NCBI GenBank assembly: GCA_017513005.1
Contig: JAFWDM010000096.1
Location: 1-40,524 of the forward strand
Length of the DNA stretch: 40,524 nucleotides
Source: Lachnospiraceae bacterium
GTDB taxonomy: Bacteria; Bacillota; Clostridia; Lachnospirales; Lachnospiraceae
Reading direction: 5' to 3'
The notes under the pieces were generated by a model, which was given only the letters and a program-made list of their open reading frames with translations, was not told the DNA's origin and searched no databases. The position numbers were made by a program, and so were the translations under genes. The stretch's first letter is position 1, and each line of letters begins with the position of its first letter. Positions 31,555 through 38,418 of this stretch are shown one piece after another.

Positions 31555-32889
31555 TCAAAGTGTAAATTCTACATAATCGGCCCCTGCCTTGTCCGAGACC
31601 TCCTCAGATTTCGCGTAGGAAAAGTCCTCCGACTGGAGCAGGTCCATCATGCGCAGGTCCGGGTTCTGGTACATGAGGTCGAGCAGCTCGATGAAGTCGC
31701 GGATAACCTCGCGGGGGGTGATGTGCCGGTCGGCGCCGATCCGGCCGTATTCCAGTTTGATGAAGTCCGCCAGGGACTCTGTCCCGATGGTCCGCTCATA
31801 GCCGTAGAGGCCGGCGTGCATGTCGGACAGCTTCTCGCACAGAACCAGCATCTCCTCGGGGGTCAGGGGCTCCAAGCGGATGACCGGGGCCAGGAGGTCG
31901 CGGGCACCCGGACGGGAGAATTTTCCTTCTGCCAGCCGGGACCGCAGGGCCTCGTAGCTGTAGACGCCGCGCCGCTTGTCCTCGACGGCCTGGGGCGTCG
32001 CCCCCAGGATGATGCCCAGGTATTTTGCCTTGCCCTGCAGGGTGTCATTGTACATGGTCAGCATCTTTTCATAATTGTACTGGCGGGTGATAGAGTTGGG
32101 GATCTTGTAGATATTTACCAGCTCGTCGATCATGATCATCATGCCTGAATAGCCCGCCAGGCGGAAAAAGAGGGCAAAGAGCTTGAGGTACTCGTACCAG
32201 TCATCGTCCGTGATGATGATATTGACGCCCAGGGCCTCTTTGGCCTCCCGCTTGAGGGCGTATTCGCCGCGGAACCAGCGGACGACCTTCATCTTTTTCT
32301 CCACGTCGTCCTCCACATAGGCGTGGTAGTACATGGAAAGGAGCCGGGCGAACTCAAAGCCGTGGACCAGCTCGCTGACGGCGGCGGTGACTTCATAAAT
32401 CTTCTGATCCACTGCCCTGGTCAGGGCGGGGGCTCCGGGCGCATATCCCGTCTCCTGCAGGGTCTGCGTCTGGACGGTACTGATCCACCGGTCCAGGACC
32501 AAGGTCAGGGCCCCGCCCTCCGGCTTCGTTTTGGTGGAGAGGTTCCCGATCAGCTCCCGGTAGGTGGCCAGTCCCTGGCCCCGCGTCCCCTGGAGCCGCC
32601 GCTCGGGCGAAAGGTCCGCGTCCGCCACGATAAAGCCCCGGTCCATCACATAGTTGCGGATGGTCTGGATCAGGAAGCTCTTGCCGGACCCGTAGCGGCC
32701 CACGATAAAGCGGAAGGAGGCCCCTCCCTCCGAGATGATGTCCACATCGTGGAGCAGGGCTTCGATCTCGTTTTTCCGTCCGACTGTGATATAGGGCAGG
32801 CCGATCCTGGGGACCACGCCGCCCTTGAGTGAATTCAGCACCGTCTGCGCGATCCGCTTCGGTACCTTTTTATTTCTGCTGTCTGCCAT
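31555..32889 (-). CDS. P-loop ATPase of the DUF2791/BrxD family
   Basis: 444 aa AAA-like ATPase. Walker A GRYGSGKS (64-71), Walker B MIMIDE (251-256) followed by LVNIYKIPN, a sensor-like GIILGATPQAVEDKRRGVYS and a C-terminal RHITPREVIRDFIELLDLM region. This is the P-loop family once called DUF2791, which includes BrxD of BREX phage-defence systems; the match is by eye. ATG at 32889 behind GGAGAAG. Third gene of the helicase-TerB-ATPase set, 147 bp after the TerB gene, with a possible promoter of its own. Confidence 0.85.
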   Translation of the reverse strand: MADSRNKKVPKRIAQTVLNSLKGGVVPRIGLPYITVGRKNEIEALLHDVDIISEGGASFRFIVGRYGSGKSFLIQTIRNYVMDRGFIVADADLSPERRLQGTRGQGLATYRELIGNLSTKTKPEGGALTLVLDRWISTVQTQTLQETGYAPGAPALTRAVDQKIYEVTAAVSELVHGFEFARLLSMYYHAYVEDDVEKKMKVVRWFRGEYALKREAKEALGVNIIITDDDWYEYLKLFALFFRLAGYSGMMIMIDELVNIYKIPNSITRQYNYEKMLTMYNDTLQGKAKYLGIILGATPQAVEDKRRGVYSYEALRSRLAEGKFSRPGARDLLAPVIRLEPLTPEEMLVLCEKLSDMHAGLYGYERTIGTESLADFIKLEYGRIGADRHITPREVIRDFIELLDLMYQNPDLRMMDLLQSEDFSYAKSEEVSDKAGADYVEFTL

Positions 32890-32929
32890 CTGTTATGCTT
32901 CTCCGTGATCTTCTTCTGAATAATCTCCT

Positions 32930-32957
32930 ATTATCTATGATCTTCTCTATCTGTCGA
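32930..32957 (-). promoter_or_regulatory. Possible internal promoter of the BrxD-type ATPase
   Basis: Minus strand: TCGACA (32952-32957), 16-bp spacer, GATAAT (32930-32935), each one base off consensus. A perfect AAAAAACGTTTTTT palindrome lies upstream at 32975-32988. Confidence 0.45.
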
Positions 32958-33036
32958 TATATCTCACGATTGTTAAAAAACGTTTTTTCGTGCTCCGGAT
33001 CCCGTCAGTCCGGATCCGTTTCCCGGCCTCCGGCGC

Positions 33037-35526
33037 TCAAGGAAACAAGTCCGCAAGATCCGCCCTGTAATCCTCTATCAGGATAAGATGATCTTCATCC
33101 CACTCCAGGACGTTGTCCCCGATCTCCTCAAAGAGAGCCTCATTGATCGTATCCGCGACGATAGCGGGCATCAGGTGCTGCTCTCTGATCAGGCCATCGA
33201 CGGACTGATCCTGCAGCAATGTCCGCAGGATCTGCGTGTGCAGGGCATCCAGGCCGTCAATTGTGCCGGCATCCTCCCCGGAGCAGGGGCCTGCCGGCTT
33301 TGACTCTTTCGTCGTTTCCTCCGGGCCTTCTGCAGACAAGGGGCTTTCTTTCATTTCCGCCCGACCGGTTCCCGGTATCCGGTCACGGGCAGACTCGTCG
33401 AGGCTCTCAGCCGCCCCCGGGAGGCTTTCCCGCTCTTCCTCACGACCGGTTCCCGGTATCCGGCCACGGACTGCTTCATCGGAATGATCTGCCGGAGCCA
33501 GGAAGCCTTCAGATTCCGTTACGCCAGCCCCCGCGTCAGTCCCGGGCCGTGTCTGATAGAAAAGTTCTTCAGCTTCCTCCGCTTTCTCCTCTTCCGTCAG
33601 CAGGCTGTCTCTGGTAATCAGCGCATCCCGTCGGATCTTGTCCAGGCCGGACAGATCGATCCGGATCCTGTCCAGGGCAGCCTTTTTCTCCACCTCGATC
33701 CGGGCCTTTTCATCAGCTTCCAGGTCGGCAGCGATGACCGCCTCGATATAAGGCTCGGCCCATGCCTCCTCCGCTTTTGCCCGGAGGTAATGTCCGGTCC
33801 TGAGATATCTGCGAAAGCCCCTGTCGGCAGCATGGAGCAGGCCCTGCAGCCGGTCTTTTGCAAAACAGGGATTTTCGTAGTGCTCCTCCTCCCACTCGCC
33901 TGCATGGCAGCGATAGATACGGCAGGCGTTCAGGACATACAAAGCCTCCTGCGGCCGGTCCTCCTCCCAGTGGATGGCATTGGAGAGAGGATTCCAGGGA
34001 CTTTTTTTCCGCACTCCGAAGCAGTCGGTGAAAATGGCCGGGTCCTCACTCTCGACCGGATGTCCCGCGGACACCATCTCATTTTTCCTGGCCTGCGCAG
34101 ACGCAGGCGGGGTTGGTTCCGTTTCCGCTGTGAGCTTTCCGGCCGTGTCTCCCGCGGGAGCAGCGGCCTCCTCCCCTGATCCATAGTGCTCGGTCAGGTA
34201 TCTCCAGAGTGCCGCAAACAGGTGCCTTCCTTTTTCTCCGCCGCCTGTCTTCCCGCCGTCCGTTTTTCCGTTTTCCGTTTTTCCGTTTTTCCGTTTTTCA
34301 TTTTCTGTTTTCCCATTGTCCGTTTTCCCATTGTCCGCGACGACCGGGGACTGCGGGAGCTTTTTCCCGCCAAAGGCGCAGAGCGCGGCGAAGATCTCCT
34401 CGTCGCTGTGGTCTTTAGGGGCCTTCAGGACAGCCAGCTGCAGGTCTCTCTCCGCAATGGCCGGCAGTTCATAGAGACGGGCTGTCTCCACGGGTACATT
34501 GTGGATGACCGCGTAATCCAGCATCCAGCGATGGAGATTTCTGCGCATAAAGGTATCCCCGATCCCGGAATCCAGGAAGCCCTTTTCAAACTCCCGCATT
34601 TTCCGCAGGCTGTCCTCCGGGGAGGAGGTCCCGATTCCGCAGAGGAGCTCATAGATATACATATAGGCCAGCGATGAGGCGATGGGGCGGAACTGCCCCT
34701 TTCGCAGGGCGGTCCTCCAGGTAAAATAACCCCGCAGCTGGGGCAGGTGGAGGTCATGGTAGGTGGTGAAATACCGCCTGTACTCCCCGGTCCAGGAGGC
34801 GTCGTCCTCGTAGTCCTCCATGAACCTGCCCTGGCGGTAGAAATTCCGGCTCTTCGCCTCCAGAGATTCGCCCTGGTACTCGTACAGACGCATCATATCC
34901 CGGATCTTCTGCGGGATATGCGGAAGTGCTGTGGAGGCATAGCGGCCGGTCCTGTCGGCCTCCCGGAAAAAGTCCCTGGTCCAGGCCTCTGTGCTGTCAG
35001 GCGCAGAATCTGCCGGGGCATGCTCCTGCTCCGGGGCCGGCAGCCTCAGGGTCTCCTGTATTTTCCTGCTTCGCATCGGAGGCAGTGCAGTGCCGCGATC
35101 CTGTTCCTTCTGCGGCAGCGCCGTGTCATGGTACAGCCCCTTTGTATTGCCGCGCAGGTCCTCCAGGATGACTGTGTAAGCCCGCCGCTGGCGGATCATG
35201 CCGACCGCCCGGTCAAAAAGCCCGAAGACGATCTCCGGGTCCGTCCGGCCATCAAAGATCACGCCCACCCAGTTCTGGCCCTTCATGCGGAAGGGCAGGG
35301 TCAGCCAGGGAACCCGGATCTCGGCCAGGCACTGCCGCCCGCACTTGATGTCGCACCGCTGCACTTCCTCGCCGGTATCCCCGTCCCACTGACGCATGAG
35401 CAGGGCGGCCCACTTTCCGGTCCCCGGTTCCGCCAGGACCGAAAAGCCCGGGAAGTCAGCCCACTTATGCTGTTCCTGAATAGTATGTTTTTCCCGGGCA
35501 TAAGCCGCCAGCTCCGACAGTTCCAA
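33037..35526 (-). CDS. TerB-N / TerB-C domain protein
   Basis: 829 aa soluble protein. Residues about 10-115 form an unnamed N-terminal domain; about 195-385 is TerB-N (QGESLEAKSRNFYRQGRF, then GYFTWRTALRKGQF and YIYELLCGIG). A linker of NGKT-like repeats follows at about 398-432. The C-terminal part, from about 500, ends in the TerB-C pattern DTINEALFEEIGDNVLEWDE; it is split by an insert holding two RIPGTGR repeats near 690-735. I do not see a separate TerB domain. Start: TTG at 35526, eight bases after GGAGGAG; the open frame beyond would place that site inside the gene. TerB-related proteins are tied to stress and predicted DNA-processing systems. Middle gene of the set. Confidence 0.8.
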   Translation of the reverse strand: MELSELAAYAREKHTIQEQHKWADFPGFSVLAEPGTGKWAALLMRQWDGDTGEEVQRCDIKCGRQCLAEIRVPWLTLPFRMKGQNWVGVIFDGRTDPEIVFGLFDRAVGMIRQRRAYTVILEDLRGNTKGLYHDTALPQKEQDRGTALPPMRSRKIQETLRLPAPEQEHAPADSAPDSTEAWTRDFFREADRTGRYASTALPHIPQKIRDMMRLYEYQGESLEAKSRNFYRQGRFMEDYEDDASWTGEYRRYFTTYHDLHLPQLRGYFTWRTALRKGQFRPIASSLAYMYIYELLCGIGTSSPEDSLRKMREFEKGFLDSGIGDTFMRRNLHRWMLDYAVIHNVPVETARLYELPAIAERDLQLAVLKAPKDHSDEEIFAALCAFGGKKLPQSPVVADNGKTDNGKTENEKRKNGKTENGKTDGGKTGGGEKGRHLFAALWRYLTEHYGSGEEAAAPAGDTAGKLTAETEPTPPASAQARKNEMVSAGHPVESEDPAIFTDCFGVRKKSPWNPLSNAIHWEEDRPQEALYVLNACRIYRCHAGEWEEEHYENPCFAKDRLQGLLHAADRGFRRYLRTGHYLRAKAEEAWAEPYIEAVIAADLEADEKARIEVEKKAALDRIRIDLSGLDKIRRDALITRDSLLTEEEKAEEAEELFYQTRPGTDAGAGVTESEGFLAPADHSDEAVRGRIPGTGREEERESLPGAAESLDESARDRIPGTGRAEMKESPLSAEGPEETTKESKPAGPCSGEDAGTIDGLDALHTQILRTLLQDQSVDGLIREQHLMPAIVADTINEALFEEIGDNVLEWDEDHLILIEDYRADLADLFP

Positions 35527-35562
35527 AAACCACTCTCCTCCTTTTGACAGTCCTGACAAGTT

Positions 35563-35865
35563 TCACGCTGATTTTTTTGATTTATGCGTTATTGCTGATT
35601 TATGCGTTATTGCTGATTTATGCGCTATTGTTGATTCTATTGATTCATGCGTTATTGCTGATTTATGCGCTATTGTTGATTCTGTTGATTTATGCGTTAC
35701 TGTTTCCCCATGAGGTAATGCTGCACTGCTCCATGATGTTGAGAATACTTCTCCCGGGGATTCCACGGGAATGTCCCGATGAATCATGGATCTGAGCTGT
35801 GTGTTTGCACGAGCCGAAAAACTGTCCCCGCCGACTCCTGTCCCGAATAAATCAAAAAGGGCCAT
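35563..35865 (-). CDS. Doubtful small ORF with AITHKS repeats
   Basis: 100 codons between helicase and TerB genes on the same strand, ending 36 bp before the TerB start. The first 55 residues (beginning MALFDLFGTGVGGDSFSARA) look like a normal soluble protein; the rest is made of AITHKS / TIAHKS hexapeptides from the 18/9-bp repeat. No ribosome binding site is visible before the ATG. No homologue recognised. May be a real small component, a leader or an accident of the repeat. Confidence 0.3.
   Translation of the reverse strand: MALFDLFGTGVGGDSFSARANTQLRSMIHRDIPVESPGEVFSTSWSSAALPHGETVTHKSTESTIAHKSAITHESIESTIAHKSAITHKSAITHKSKKSA
35578..35703. repeat. 18-bp tandem repeat with 9-bp spacers
   Basis: Six 18-bp units of the form TGATTTATGCGTTATTGC, interrupted twice by a 9-bp TGATTCTRT. 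All lengths are multiples of nine, so the reading frame is kept on both strands. Confidence 0.88.
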
Positions 35866-35891
35866 TTACATCGGGTCATGTCGGTTCGAAT

Positions 35892-35930
35892 GTGTCAAAA
35901 AGAACCGTCCCCTTTGTCACCTTTTGACAC
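35892..35930. repeat. REP-like element, class B, at the helicase stop
   Basis: GTGTCAAAA and TTTTGACAC arms around AGAACCGTCCCCTTTGTCACC. Similar in plan to class A (AGAACTGACCCC). The helicase stop codon at 35917 lies inside it. Confidence 0.7.
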
Positions 35931-38205
35931 CAGTCAGGAGCTTTCTCTCATGGCCGGTCCAGCCGAGGACCCGCTGCCGCATGCCCTCGACGTCGAGGAC
36001 ACCCAGGGCAAAGCCCTTGCGAACCAGGTCCTCGGGCACGAATTCGTCGTATTTTTCGAAGACGGGGACCTCTTTGGGGTAGACCAGCTCCAGGGGGTCG
36101 ATGTCCTTCTCCACCTCTTCGGTGACGATCCGGTAGAAGTCCTCCTCGCTGGCCTGCATGGTGAACTGCAGGTAGTAGGGGCGGGCGGGGTTGAAGCCCT
36201 TGAGGCCCAGCTGTTTCCCGCAGCGGATCTTGAGGAAGCGCTCCAGGGCCAGGAAGGCATAGCTGCCCAGCCAGGGAAAGAGGGCCCACATTTTCCCGCC
36301 CAGGTGGATGAGGGGCCGGTCCGCCATACCGGATTTCATAAATTCCGCGCGGGCGTCCCGGAGGCGGCAGACGGCGTGGCGCATGAGATAGGGGTAGGTC
36401 TCCTCCTCGCGAAGGACCGCGAACATGCGCTCCAGGATCCGGGTGTGGATGTCGCCGGCCACATCGCCGAAATAGGCGGGAATATTGCCCTTGACCAGCT
36501 CGCAGTAGACGACGTGCTTTTTGTGGTCGACCTCCTCCACGATCCAGACCCGGCCGGCGATGGCGATCTTGTCCCCGACCGGCGGGGGGGCGACGATGGT
36601 GCCCAGCTCCTCGGAGCCGGCCCGGACGGAGTACTCGATATTTTCCTGGAAAACGGCGTAGAACTTGTAGTTGTTGACGATCCGCTCCCCGGAAAGGCCC
36701 ACGATCAGGCCGCCGCCCTCGGTCCTGGCGATGTGGTCGATCTCCAGCAGGTGCAGCAAAAGCGCTTTATAGTCCTCCTGGCTGATCCTGTGGAAACAGG
36801 CCAGGGGCAGGACCCGGGAGGCCAGCTCGCCGGGCGTCATTTCCCCGCAGGAGGCCAGGGTACTCATGGTCTGGTGGTAGAGCAGGCTGTAGGGCAGGCG
36901 GTCCATCCTGGGGGGCTCCACGAAGCGGTCCTCGATATAGAGCTGGACAAGCGCGATGCCCTGGATCAGGCGCCAGGGGATCATGTCCGGCAGCATGGCC
37001 CGGGGCTCGGGGTGGTCCTCCCGCATGACGAACCACATCTCCGACGGGTCTCCCCGCCGGCCGGTCCGGCCCATGCGCTGCAGAAAGCCCGATACCGTGA
37101 AGGGGGCATCGATCTGGAAGGCCCGCTCCAGGCGGCCGATGTCGATGCCCAGCTCCAGGGTCGCGGTCGCGCAGACACTCATGAGGGAATCGTCGTCCTT
37201 CATCTCCTCCTCGGCGCTCTCCCGGTAGGAGGCCGACAGGTTGCCGTGGTGGATCAAAAACCGCTCCGGCTCGTGCATGACCTCGCAGTACTGGCGCAGA
37301 GTCTGGCAGACCGCCTCGCACTCCTCGCGGGAGTTGGTGAAGACCAGGCACTTTTTGCCCCGCGTGTGGGCAAAAATATAGCCGATGCCGGGGTCCGCTG
37401 CCTTTGGGGCACCGTCCGTCGCCTCCTCGGGCTCCATTCCCTCTCCCGTCCCGGCGCTTTTGCTCCGCACCAGTCCCGGAGAAATCCCCGCGTCCGCCTG
37501 GGGATCCGTGTTGTAAAAATGCTCCATGGAAAGCCGCCAGACCTCGCGTCCCCCGTCAAATTTCGGGATGATGGTCCCCCGCCCGCTGCCCGAGGCCAGA
37601 AAGCGGCCGGCGGCCTCCGGATTCCCGATGGTGGCGGACAAGCCGACCCTGCGCGGCGAGCACCCGGCCAGCTTACAGAGCCGCTCGATCAGGCAGAAGG
37701 TCTGCATGCCCCGGTCCCCGCGGAGCAGGGAGTGGATCTCGTCGATGACGATAAAGCGCAGGTCCCCGAAGAGTCTGGGGATCTCCATATGCTTGTTGAT
37801 CATGAGGGATTCCAGGGATTCGGGCGTGATCTGCAGGATCCCGGAGGGCTTTTTCAAAAGCTTGCGCTTTCTGGTCTGCGCCACGTCCCCGTGCCAGCGC
37901 CAGACCTCGATCCCCTCCTCCTCGCACAGGTCGTTCAGGCGCCCGAACTGGTCATTGATCAGGGCCTTGAGCGGGGCGATGTAGAGGGCCCCCACACTGC
38001 GGGGCGGATCCTCGTCCAGAAGGGTCAGGATGGGAAAAAAGGCTGCCTCCGTCTTGCCCGAGGCCGTCGAGGCCGTCAGCAGGACATTTTCATCTGTCCC
38101 GAAGATGGCGTCTCCCGCCGCATTCTGCACACCTCGCAGCATCTGCCAGCCCGACCTGTATATATAATCCTGTATAAAAGGTGCATACCTGCTGAAAACA
38201 TCCAT
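35917..38205 (-). CDS. Lhr-like DEAD/DEAH-box helicase
   Basis: 762 aa superfamily 2 helicase. Motif I ASTASGKT (45-52), motif Ia APLKALINDQ, motif II DEIH (155-158), motif III SAT (190-192), motif VI QRMGRTGRRG (376-385); the C-terminal half is the Lhr-type winged-helix and accessory region. BREX type 2 carries a helicase of this general type (BrxHI). An acidic insert at about 233-273 separates the two RecA lobes. ATG at 38205 behind AAGGAG. First gene of the set; its last residues (TGVKR) and stop are supplied by a REP-like element. Confidence 0.88.
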   Translation of the reverse strand: MDVFSRYAPFIQDYIYRSGWQMLRGVQNAAGDAIFGTDENVLLTASTASGKTEAAFFPILTLLDEDPPRSVGALYIAPLKALINDQFGRLNDLCEEEGIEVWRWHGDVAQTRKRKLLKKPSGILQITPESLESLMINKHMEIPRLFGDLRFIVIDEIHSLLRGDRGMQTFCLIERLCKLAGCSPRRVGLSATIGNPEAAGRFLASGSGRGTIIPKFDGGREVWRLSMEHFYNTDPQADAGISPGLVRSKSAGTGEGMEPEEATDGAPKAADPGIGYIFAHTRGKKCLVFTNSREECEAVCQTLRQYCEVMHEPERFLIHHGNLSASYRESAEEEMKDDDSLMSVCATATLELGIDIGRLERAFQIDAPFTVSGFLQRMGRTGRRGDPSEMWFVMREDHPEPRAMLPDMIPWRLIQGIALVQLYIEDRFVEPPRMDRLPYSLLYHQTMSTLASCGEMTPGELASRVLPLACFHRISQEDYKALLLHLLEIDHIARTEGGGLIVGLSGERIVNNYKFYAVFQENIEYSVRAGSEELGTIVAPPPVGDKIAIAGRVWIVEEVDHKKHVVYCELVKGNIPAYFGDVAGDIHTRILERMFAVLREEETYPYLMRHAVCRLRDARAEFMKSGMADRPLIHLGGKMWALFPWLGSYAFLALERFLKIRCGKQLGLKGFNPARPYYLQFTMQASEEDFYRIVTEEVEKDIDPLELVYPKEVPVFEKYDEFVPEDLVRKGFALGVLDVEGMRQRVLGWTGHERKLLTGVKR

Positions 38206-38374: not shown

Positions 38375-38418
38375 AGCCGGCGCATTCTCACGACTGAAGT
38401 CACGAGAATGCGCCGGCT
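38375..38418 (-). terminator. Class D REP-like palindrome acting as terminator
   Basis: Perfect 15-bp arms AGCCGGCGCATTCTC / GAGAATGCGCCGGCT, 14-base centre ACGACTGAAGTCAC. On the minus strand it is followed by TTTTGTTT, so it would end the lipoprotein hydrolase transcript. Related copies at 9877 and 19717. The rest of 38419-38579 shows nothing I can name. Confidence 0.75.

Follow-up and report, generated by a model that had tools for sequence, protein, structure and literature searches.

A chromosomal Shango locus with an unusual gene order in a Lachnospiraceae bacterium

Shango is a three-gene anti-phage system of Pseudomonas aeruginosa PA14 which, in the parts of PMC10250203 that describe it, comprises a TerB-like protein, an ATPase, and a DEAD/DEAH helicase, is also present in Escherichia coli immune islands, and on solid medium modestly reduces the plating (10-100-fold) of many phages, though not of all, with stronger protection in liquid. 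The motors of BREX type 2, BrxD and BrxHI, share their ATPase superfamily and helicase type with the Shango proteins SngB and SngC, respectively. The present analysis concerns a 40,524-nucleotide stretch of DNA, here called the window, from a Lachnospiraceae bacterium (assembly GCA_017513005.1, contig JAFWDM010000096.1), whose minus strand carries at 31555-38205 three intact neighbouring open reading frames (ORFs), transcribed right to left as sngC, sngA, and sngB. Their products belong to the same three families as Shango of PA14 and E. coli, compared by profile and by the description in the same parts of that paper. The locus is very probably a chromosomal Shango that is patchy in its genus and whose operon has undergone circular permutation, the order A-B-C having become C-A-B; the junction formed in this way carries a dispersed repeat.

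Judged by profile matches and synteny, the triad is Shango. The top PADLOC profile for each gene is the corresponding Sng profile, with 932.7 bits for SngC (E 4.7e-281), 234.3 bits for SngA, and 627.6 bits for SngB (E 3.1e-189), and the three genes are adjacent on one strand. An earlier note on this DNA, made from the letters and a list of ORFs, had placed three intact genes here, assigned their domains, and proposed a profile search as a check; that search named all three as Sng proteins, and Pfam agrees with the domain calls, giving BrxC_BrxD for SngB (E 5.8e-168), TerB_N and TerB_C for SngA, and DEAD (E 1.1e-27) and Helicase_C (E 9.6e-17) for SngC, all above cut-off. The motifs that the note had listed are likewise present, namely ASTASGKT at residue 45, DEIH at 155, SAT at 190, and QRMGRTGR at 376 of SngC (helicase motifs I, II, III, and VI), and Walker A GRYGSGKS at 64 and Walker B MIMIDE at 251 of SngB. 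Their catalytic letters (GK[ST], DE, SAT, QRxGRxGR) are identical in 73-75 of the 75 aligned sequences, and the non-catalytic letters inside the motifs vary (52-74 of 75). These patterns are standard for such proteins, and the motif positions were computed. The phage-defence function that the note had proposed accords with the published phage-inhibiting system of the same composition, as far as PMC10250203 describes it.

Synteny was assessed in a sample made up of the window, 20 loci of related genomes, and the best 80 genome-contig matches; all loci were found through SngB, the sample is biased to close relatives, and some loci occur in both sets. All three genes are present in 90 of these 101 SngB-centred loci (window included), and 8 of the remaining 11 are cut by contig ends within ~1 kb downstream of SngB, so that the neighbourhood of the three genes, a further check proposed in the earlier note, is borne out in relatives. 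After removal of incomplete and duplicate loci, 75 distinct complete loci were left, in all of which the three genes lie on one strand. The order A-B-C, which is common in Shango but not required, is found in 74 of them, and C-A-B in the window only; annotated plasmids of Paenibacillus and Sulfitobacter also have A-B-C. In 68 of the 74 distinct complete relatives neither intergenic gap exceeds 200 bp, and the widest gap of all, 2,395 bp, is at locus L129. The relatives' medians are -4 and -4, that is, overlaps, whereas the window has 357 bp from C to A and 147 bp from A to B. The window thus differs from known Shango in its order and in the gaps between its genes, which in most sampled relatives overlap or nearly do so. 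Since the triad is already described, the locus is a further example of Shango with an unusual gene order, not a new type of system. The coordinates of its features are collected in Table 1.

Table 1. Features of the Shango locus and its junctions, in window coordinates (aa, amino acids; SF2, superfamily 2)
Feature	Coordinates	Strand	Evidence or remark
sngC, Lhr/BrxHI-type SF2 helicase, 762 aa	35917..38205	-	PADLOC SngC; motifs intact
sngA, YjbR-like N domain, TerB_N, TerB_C, long variable linkers, 829 aa	33037..35526 (ORF to 35559, 840 aa)	-	PADLOC, Pfam
SngA YjbR/MmcQ-like domain, residues 5-109 from TTG 35526	35200..35514	-	phmmer to PDB 2kfp/3h9x PSPTO_3016, E 5.3e-6
SngA TerB_N domain, residues 207-398	34333..34908	-	Pfam PF13208, E 2.8e-21
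SngA TerB_C domain, residues 613-824	33055..33690	-	Pfam PF15615, E 2e-17
sngB, BrxC/BrxD-superfamily P-loop ATPase, 444 aa	31555..32889	-	PADLOC SngB; Pfam BrxC_BrxD 559.5 bits
29-bp dispersed repeat at C/A junction	35892..35920	-	bases 2-4 are the sngC stop codon (TGA, 35919-35917)
45-bp minisatellite, sngC-sngA interval	35596..35699		Tandem Repeats Finder, 2.3 copies, 94% matches
Terminator-like hairpin between upstream hydrolase gene and sngC	38375..38418	-	20-pair stem and T tail

The repeat at the C/A junction is present in this genome in 24 forward and 21 reverse copies (45) at up to 2 mismatches, with 0/0 for the reversed control, and a shorter repeat pattern gives 37 and 35 copies at up to 1 mismatch. 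It was found in 1 of 61 other same-genus genomes (8 copies there) and, across the family, in 3 of another 199 genomes sampled; the sole C-A-B genome in the sample is also the genome in which the 29-bp repeat is expanded. The tail of SngC itself proves nothing, because this part of the protein varies among the relatives as well. The simplest reading, we infer, is a rearrangement at the repeat sequence, which may have proceeded, for example, via tandem duplication and loss. A RAYT origin of the repeat was considered, but neither of two Y1-transposase matches has the repeat within the 3.4-4.0 kb examined, and for this reason we call it a dispersed repeat only. A second Shango copy was also sought in the genome and none was found; each Sng profile has one strong match, the weaker ones being those of the SngB profile to ATPases on contig C60 and of the SngC profile on contig C128 (58 bits), and the SngA profile has a single match.

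Several observations weigh against reading the locus as a permuted Shango. The SngA match reaches just 234 bits, with long extra linkers, and identity between the window SngA and that of the 15 loci nearest in SngB is 35-54%. Among relatives, locus L169 has room for SngC but none by profile in the 6.2 kb downstream, its helicase being perhaps absent or diverged, while L054 and L133 have room for SngA but none by profile in 8-10 kb. There is no clear defence-island setting: among the flank proteins of relatives that were scanned (110 of 191 candidates, from 34 of 56 loci), no PADLOC family has more than 4 matches at E<=1e-20, and the defence-type proteins are mad3 in 2 and mad6, mad8, PD-T4-6, and a CARF nuclease in 1 each. 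A fourth conserved gene was rejected in the same proteins, where no Pfam family occurs more than 4 times at E<=1e-8 (DUF5131, 4). The anti-phage role of this locus and its close relatives is predicted from their genes, and the permuted order with its lost overlaps could mean decay or an assembly join.

The last of these points can be weighed directly. An assembly artefact of the fragmented draft contig, with a true locus of order A-B-C, would fit the presence of a dispersed repeat and a minisatellite at the C/A junction, both being sites prone to short-read misjoins. We nevertheless consider it unlikely, though with a chance that deserves weight, since the repeat is just 29 bp long, two or more misjoins would be needed, the genome holds a single strong match to each of the sngA, sngB, and sngC profiles, and the A-B gap, which has no repeat copy, is altered as well. 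A decaying, non-functional copy left after the rearrangement would account for the lost operon overlaps, the sngC stop codon within the repeat, and the low-complexity expansions in SngA; it appears quite improbable in view of three full-length open frames with all motifs intact, a good ribosome-binding site before SngA, and codon-position differences that fit purifying selection (for SngC, 0.10, 0.09, and 0.49 between the window and the relative L096).

Two further alternatives concern the nature of the module rather than its arrangement. The earlier note had framed the triad as an unnamed combination of BREX motors, a framing that gives way to the profile scores: SngB has 159.2 bits with BrxD and SngC 401.4 bits with BrxHI in PADLOC, leaving the Sng-specific profiles ahead by ~470-530 bits. 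A reduced derivative of BREX type 2, with BrxD and BrxHI kept, PglX/PglZ lost, and a TerB protein added, could draw on the membership of SngB in the BrxC_BrxD Pfam family and on the BrxHI helicase type of SngC; it deserves scarcely any credence, because SngB reaches 161.1 bits with the NCBIfam BrxD equivalog, which has a cut-off of 350, PglZ (PF08665) has 0 matches in the whole genome (97.44% complete), and 74 further distinct complete loci have these three genes side by side. On these scores and the absence of PglZ, a BREX-derived module was rejected. The note's further statement that the window lacks PglX, PglZ, PglY, and PglW holds for the 18 window ORFs scanned (8 by Pfam, NCBIfam, and PADLOC, and 10 more by Pfam only), among which Pfam gave no PglX/PglZ-type, PglY, or PglW gene, PglX, PglY, and PglW not having been searched for genome-wide. 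In a published helicase tree, as given in the relevant part of PMC12278908, SngC groups with BrxHI, DruE, and DpdJ in what may be a separate clade, which explains why BREX-type motors were perceived. It would also be conceivable that the triad is a chromosomal module for DNA repair that cooperates with the SbcCD nuclease next to it: the SbcD and SbcC genes follow 3′ of sngB on the same strand, a helicase and an ATPase resemble DNA motors, and the named window neighbours are ordinary chromosomal genes (for example, those for formate-tetrahydrofolate ligase, a lyase of fumarase type, and a channel of aquaporin type). This is very unlikely, however, given the 524-bp gap between sngB and sbcD, the absence of sbcCD from 20 of 20 relatives' Shango loci within 3-20 kb of each (several on short contigs), and the contrast between sbcD, matched in 39 of 41 same-genus genomes (one weakly), and strong SngB matches, full-length or fragmentary, in 27 of 62.

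The distribution of Shango in the genus is patchy. SngB profile matches (E<=1e-3) occur in 31 of 62 same-genus genomes, many of them incomplete; 23 of the matches are strong and full-length, 4 are strong but fragmentary, and 4 are weak and fall on a separate ATPase pair. Among genomes at least 90% complete the figure is 13 of 26. In the two genomes with the closest sbcCD (SbcD 87% identical), DNA similarity ends at the sbcD start, 31030, which means that the triad sits where those two genomes have other genes. Upstream of sbcD these closest relatives carry a 287-aa gene without a Pfam match and a second gene, presumably hydrogenase-like, whose best matches in the present genome are 46-48% identical and lie elsewhere. 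A clean empty site was therefore not obtained, other genes occupying the position upstream of sbcD. Shango looks like an accessory system here, and its adjacency to sbcCD looks incidental.

SngA is the most divergent of the three proteins. It measures 829-840 aa against a Shango profile length of 528, and has a YjbR-like domain at its N terminus as well as long linkers. The extra length comes from three linkers (approximately residues 150-210, 405-510, and 660-770, numbered on the longer ORF), where the other 74 sequences mostly have gaps. Its start is most likely TTG 35526 and not 35559, because the ribosome-binding site AAGGAGGA lies just upstream of the former and 6 of 20 relatives (L037, L038, L043, L044, L045, L047) have their first residue aligned with residue 12 of the longer ORF. 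The rate of divergence of SngA is about three times that of SngB and SngC: across 687 locus pairs with SngB 80-85% identical, the median identity is 82.4% for SngB, 82.2% for SngC, and 47.6% for SngA. Between the window and 4 relatives, codon positions 1 and 2 differ by 0.27-0.33 in SngA and by 0.08-0.14 in SngB and SngC, with position 3 still the most changed.

The Pfam YjbR model gives no row at E<=10 on the window SngA and is sub-threshold in 3 of 7 relatives' SngA scanned (13.1-21.4 bits vs a cut-off of 30.1, best E 4e-4), and a profile grown from the window N domain detects a YjbR-like domain in 68 of 90 complete SngA ORFs, 57 of the 75 distinct ones. The matched structure, PSPTO_3016, belongs to the YjbR/DUF419 family and has a double-wing fold, according to a title in the reference list of PMC7641849. 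In the parts of that paper devoted to the family, fusions of MmcQ/YjbR with TerB are noted in other contexts, and DNA binding is argued from the double-wing fold; the domain pairing is the same as in SngA, Shango is not named in those parts, and the fusion is here placed in SngA of the SngABC operon. That a YjbR-like N domain is usual suggests a DNA-contacting specificity subunit, and a sensor or adaptor role of SngA is plausible because of its fast divergence together with this domain.

The two motor genes offer additional observations. The G+C content of sngC is 0.635-0.652 per kb (36000-38000), compared with ~0.56-0.60 for sngA, sngB, and sbcCD. In quick trees of SngB and SngC the window falls in no well-supported set, and its nearest rows differ, being L039 of the same genus for SngB and L098, a metagenome-assembled genome labelled Chloroflexota, for SngC; a putative different origin of sngC is left undecided. 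The region holds 12 terminator-like sites vs a mean of 7.1 in shuffles, so that among these only the long stem upstream of sngC is notable, and its promoter-like sites are not above chance (3 vs 2.9); the triad may form its own transcription unit. In a plasmid collection, SngB-like ATPases of less than 60% identity occur in 692 records (mostly Klebsiella, 449, and Salmonella, 144), 542 of which are predicted conjugative, and part of these ATPases may be BrxD rather than SngB. On a Sulfitobacter faviae plasmid (L199, 6015-8826), a PD-(D/E)XK nuclease family gene and a UvrD-type helicase gene lie directly 3′ of the Shango helicase on the same strand. At locus L053 (G044:C112, 3464-6947), sngB and sngC are each split over 2 ORFs and are apparently broken or misassembled.

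Within the parts of the Shango literature consulted, no mechanism was found, and a literature search on the combination of TerB-N, BrxD, and a helicase returned no papers. A possible mechanism, which we hold tentatively, is that SngA, with its YjbR-like, TerB_N, and TerB_C domains, would contact a feature either of the phage's DNA or of its replication complex and, as an adaptor, recruit the SngB ATPase and the SngC helicase. SngB, an AAA+-like ATPase, could couple ATP hydrolysis to assembly on the recognised DNA, and SngC, a BrxHI/Lhr-type SF2 helicase, would then translocate along, remodel, or unwind the DNA and in this way block phage replication. Pfam, NCBIfam, and PADLOC list no dedicated nuclease family for the three proteins, SngC matching just restriction- and Cas3-type helicase-domain models; it is thus more likely that the block involves no degradation, or that host nucleases degrade the DNA, than that the system cuts it directly. 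A more specific proposal, doubtful as a whole, is that the locus is a working Shango variant: a repeat-mediated rearrangement would have brought the helicase gene to the first position, uncoupled from sngA-sngB, and SngA, combining a YjbR-like DNA-binding domain, a fast-evolving TerB module, and variable linkers, would serve as the phage-specificity subunit of a helicase-ATPase surveillance complex.

A separate cluster in the same genome (L195, G000:C60, 2326-8041) encodes an SF2 helicase (XPB/PbeA-like, 586 aa), a 260-aa protein, and two BrxC/BrxD-type ATPases (628 and 432 aa). The four genes recur in 5 of 5 same-genus loci examined (L200-L204), with the helicase on the other strand in L201, L202, and L204, and their PADLOC matches are partial (PbeA 208.6 bits; BrxD 83.4 and 39.3 bits; none for the 260-aa protein). 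This four-gene group is a candidate defence cluster and possibly a more novel lead than the Shango locus.

Naming the triad as Shango removes the false lead of a new BREX-derived triad and adds testable detail to what is described of the system. The TerB subunit diverges about threefold faster than both motors and, within this clade, usually carries a domain of DNA-binding type. Furthermore, the order common to the other 74 of 75 loci appears to have been broken once, without gene loss, in a genome in which the repeat is expanded.

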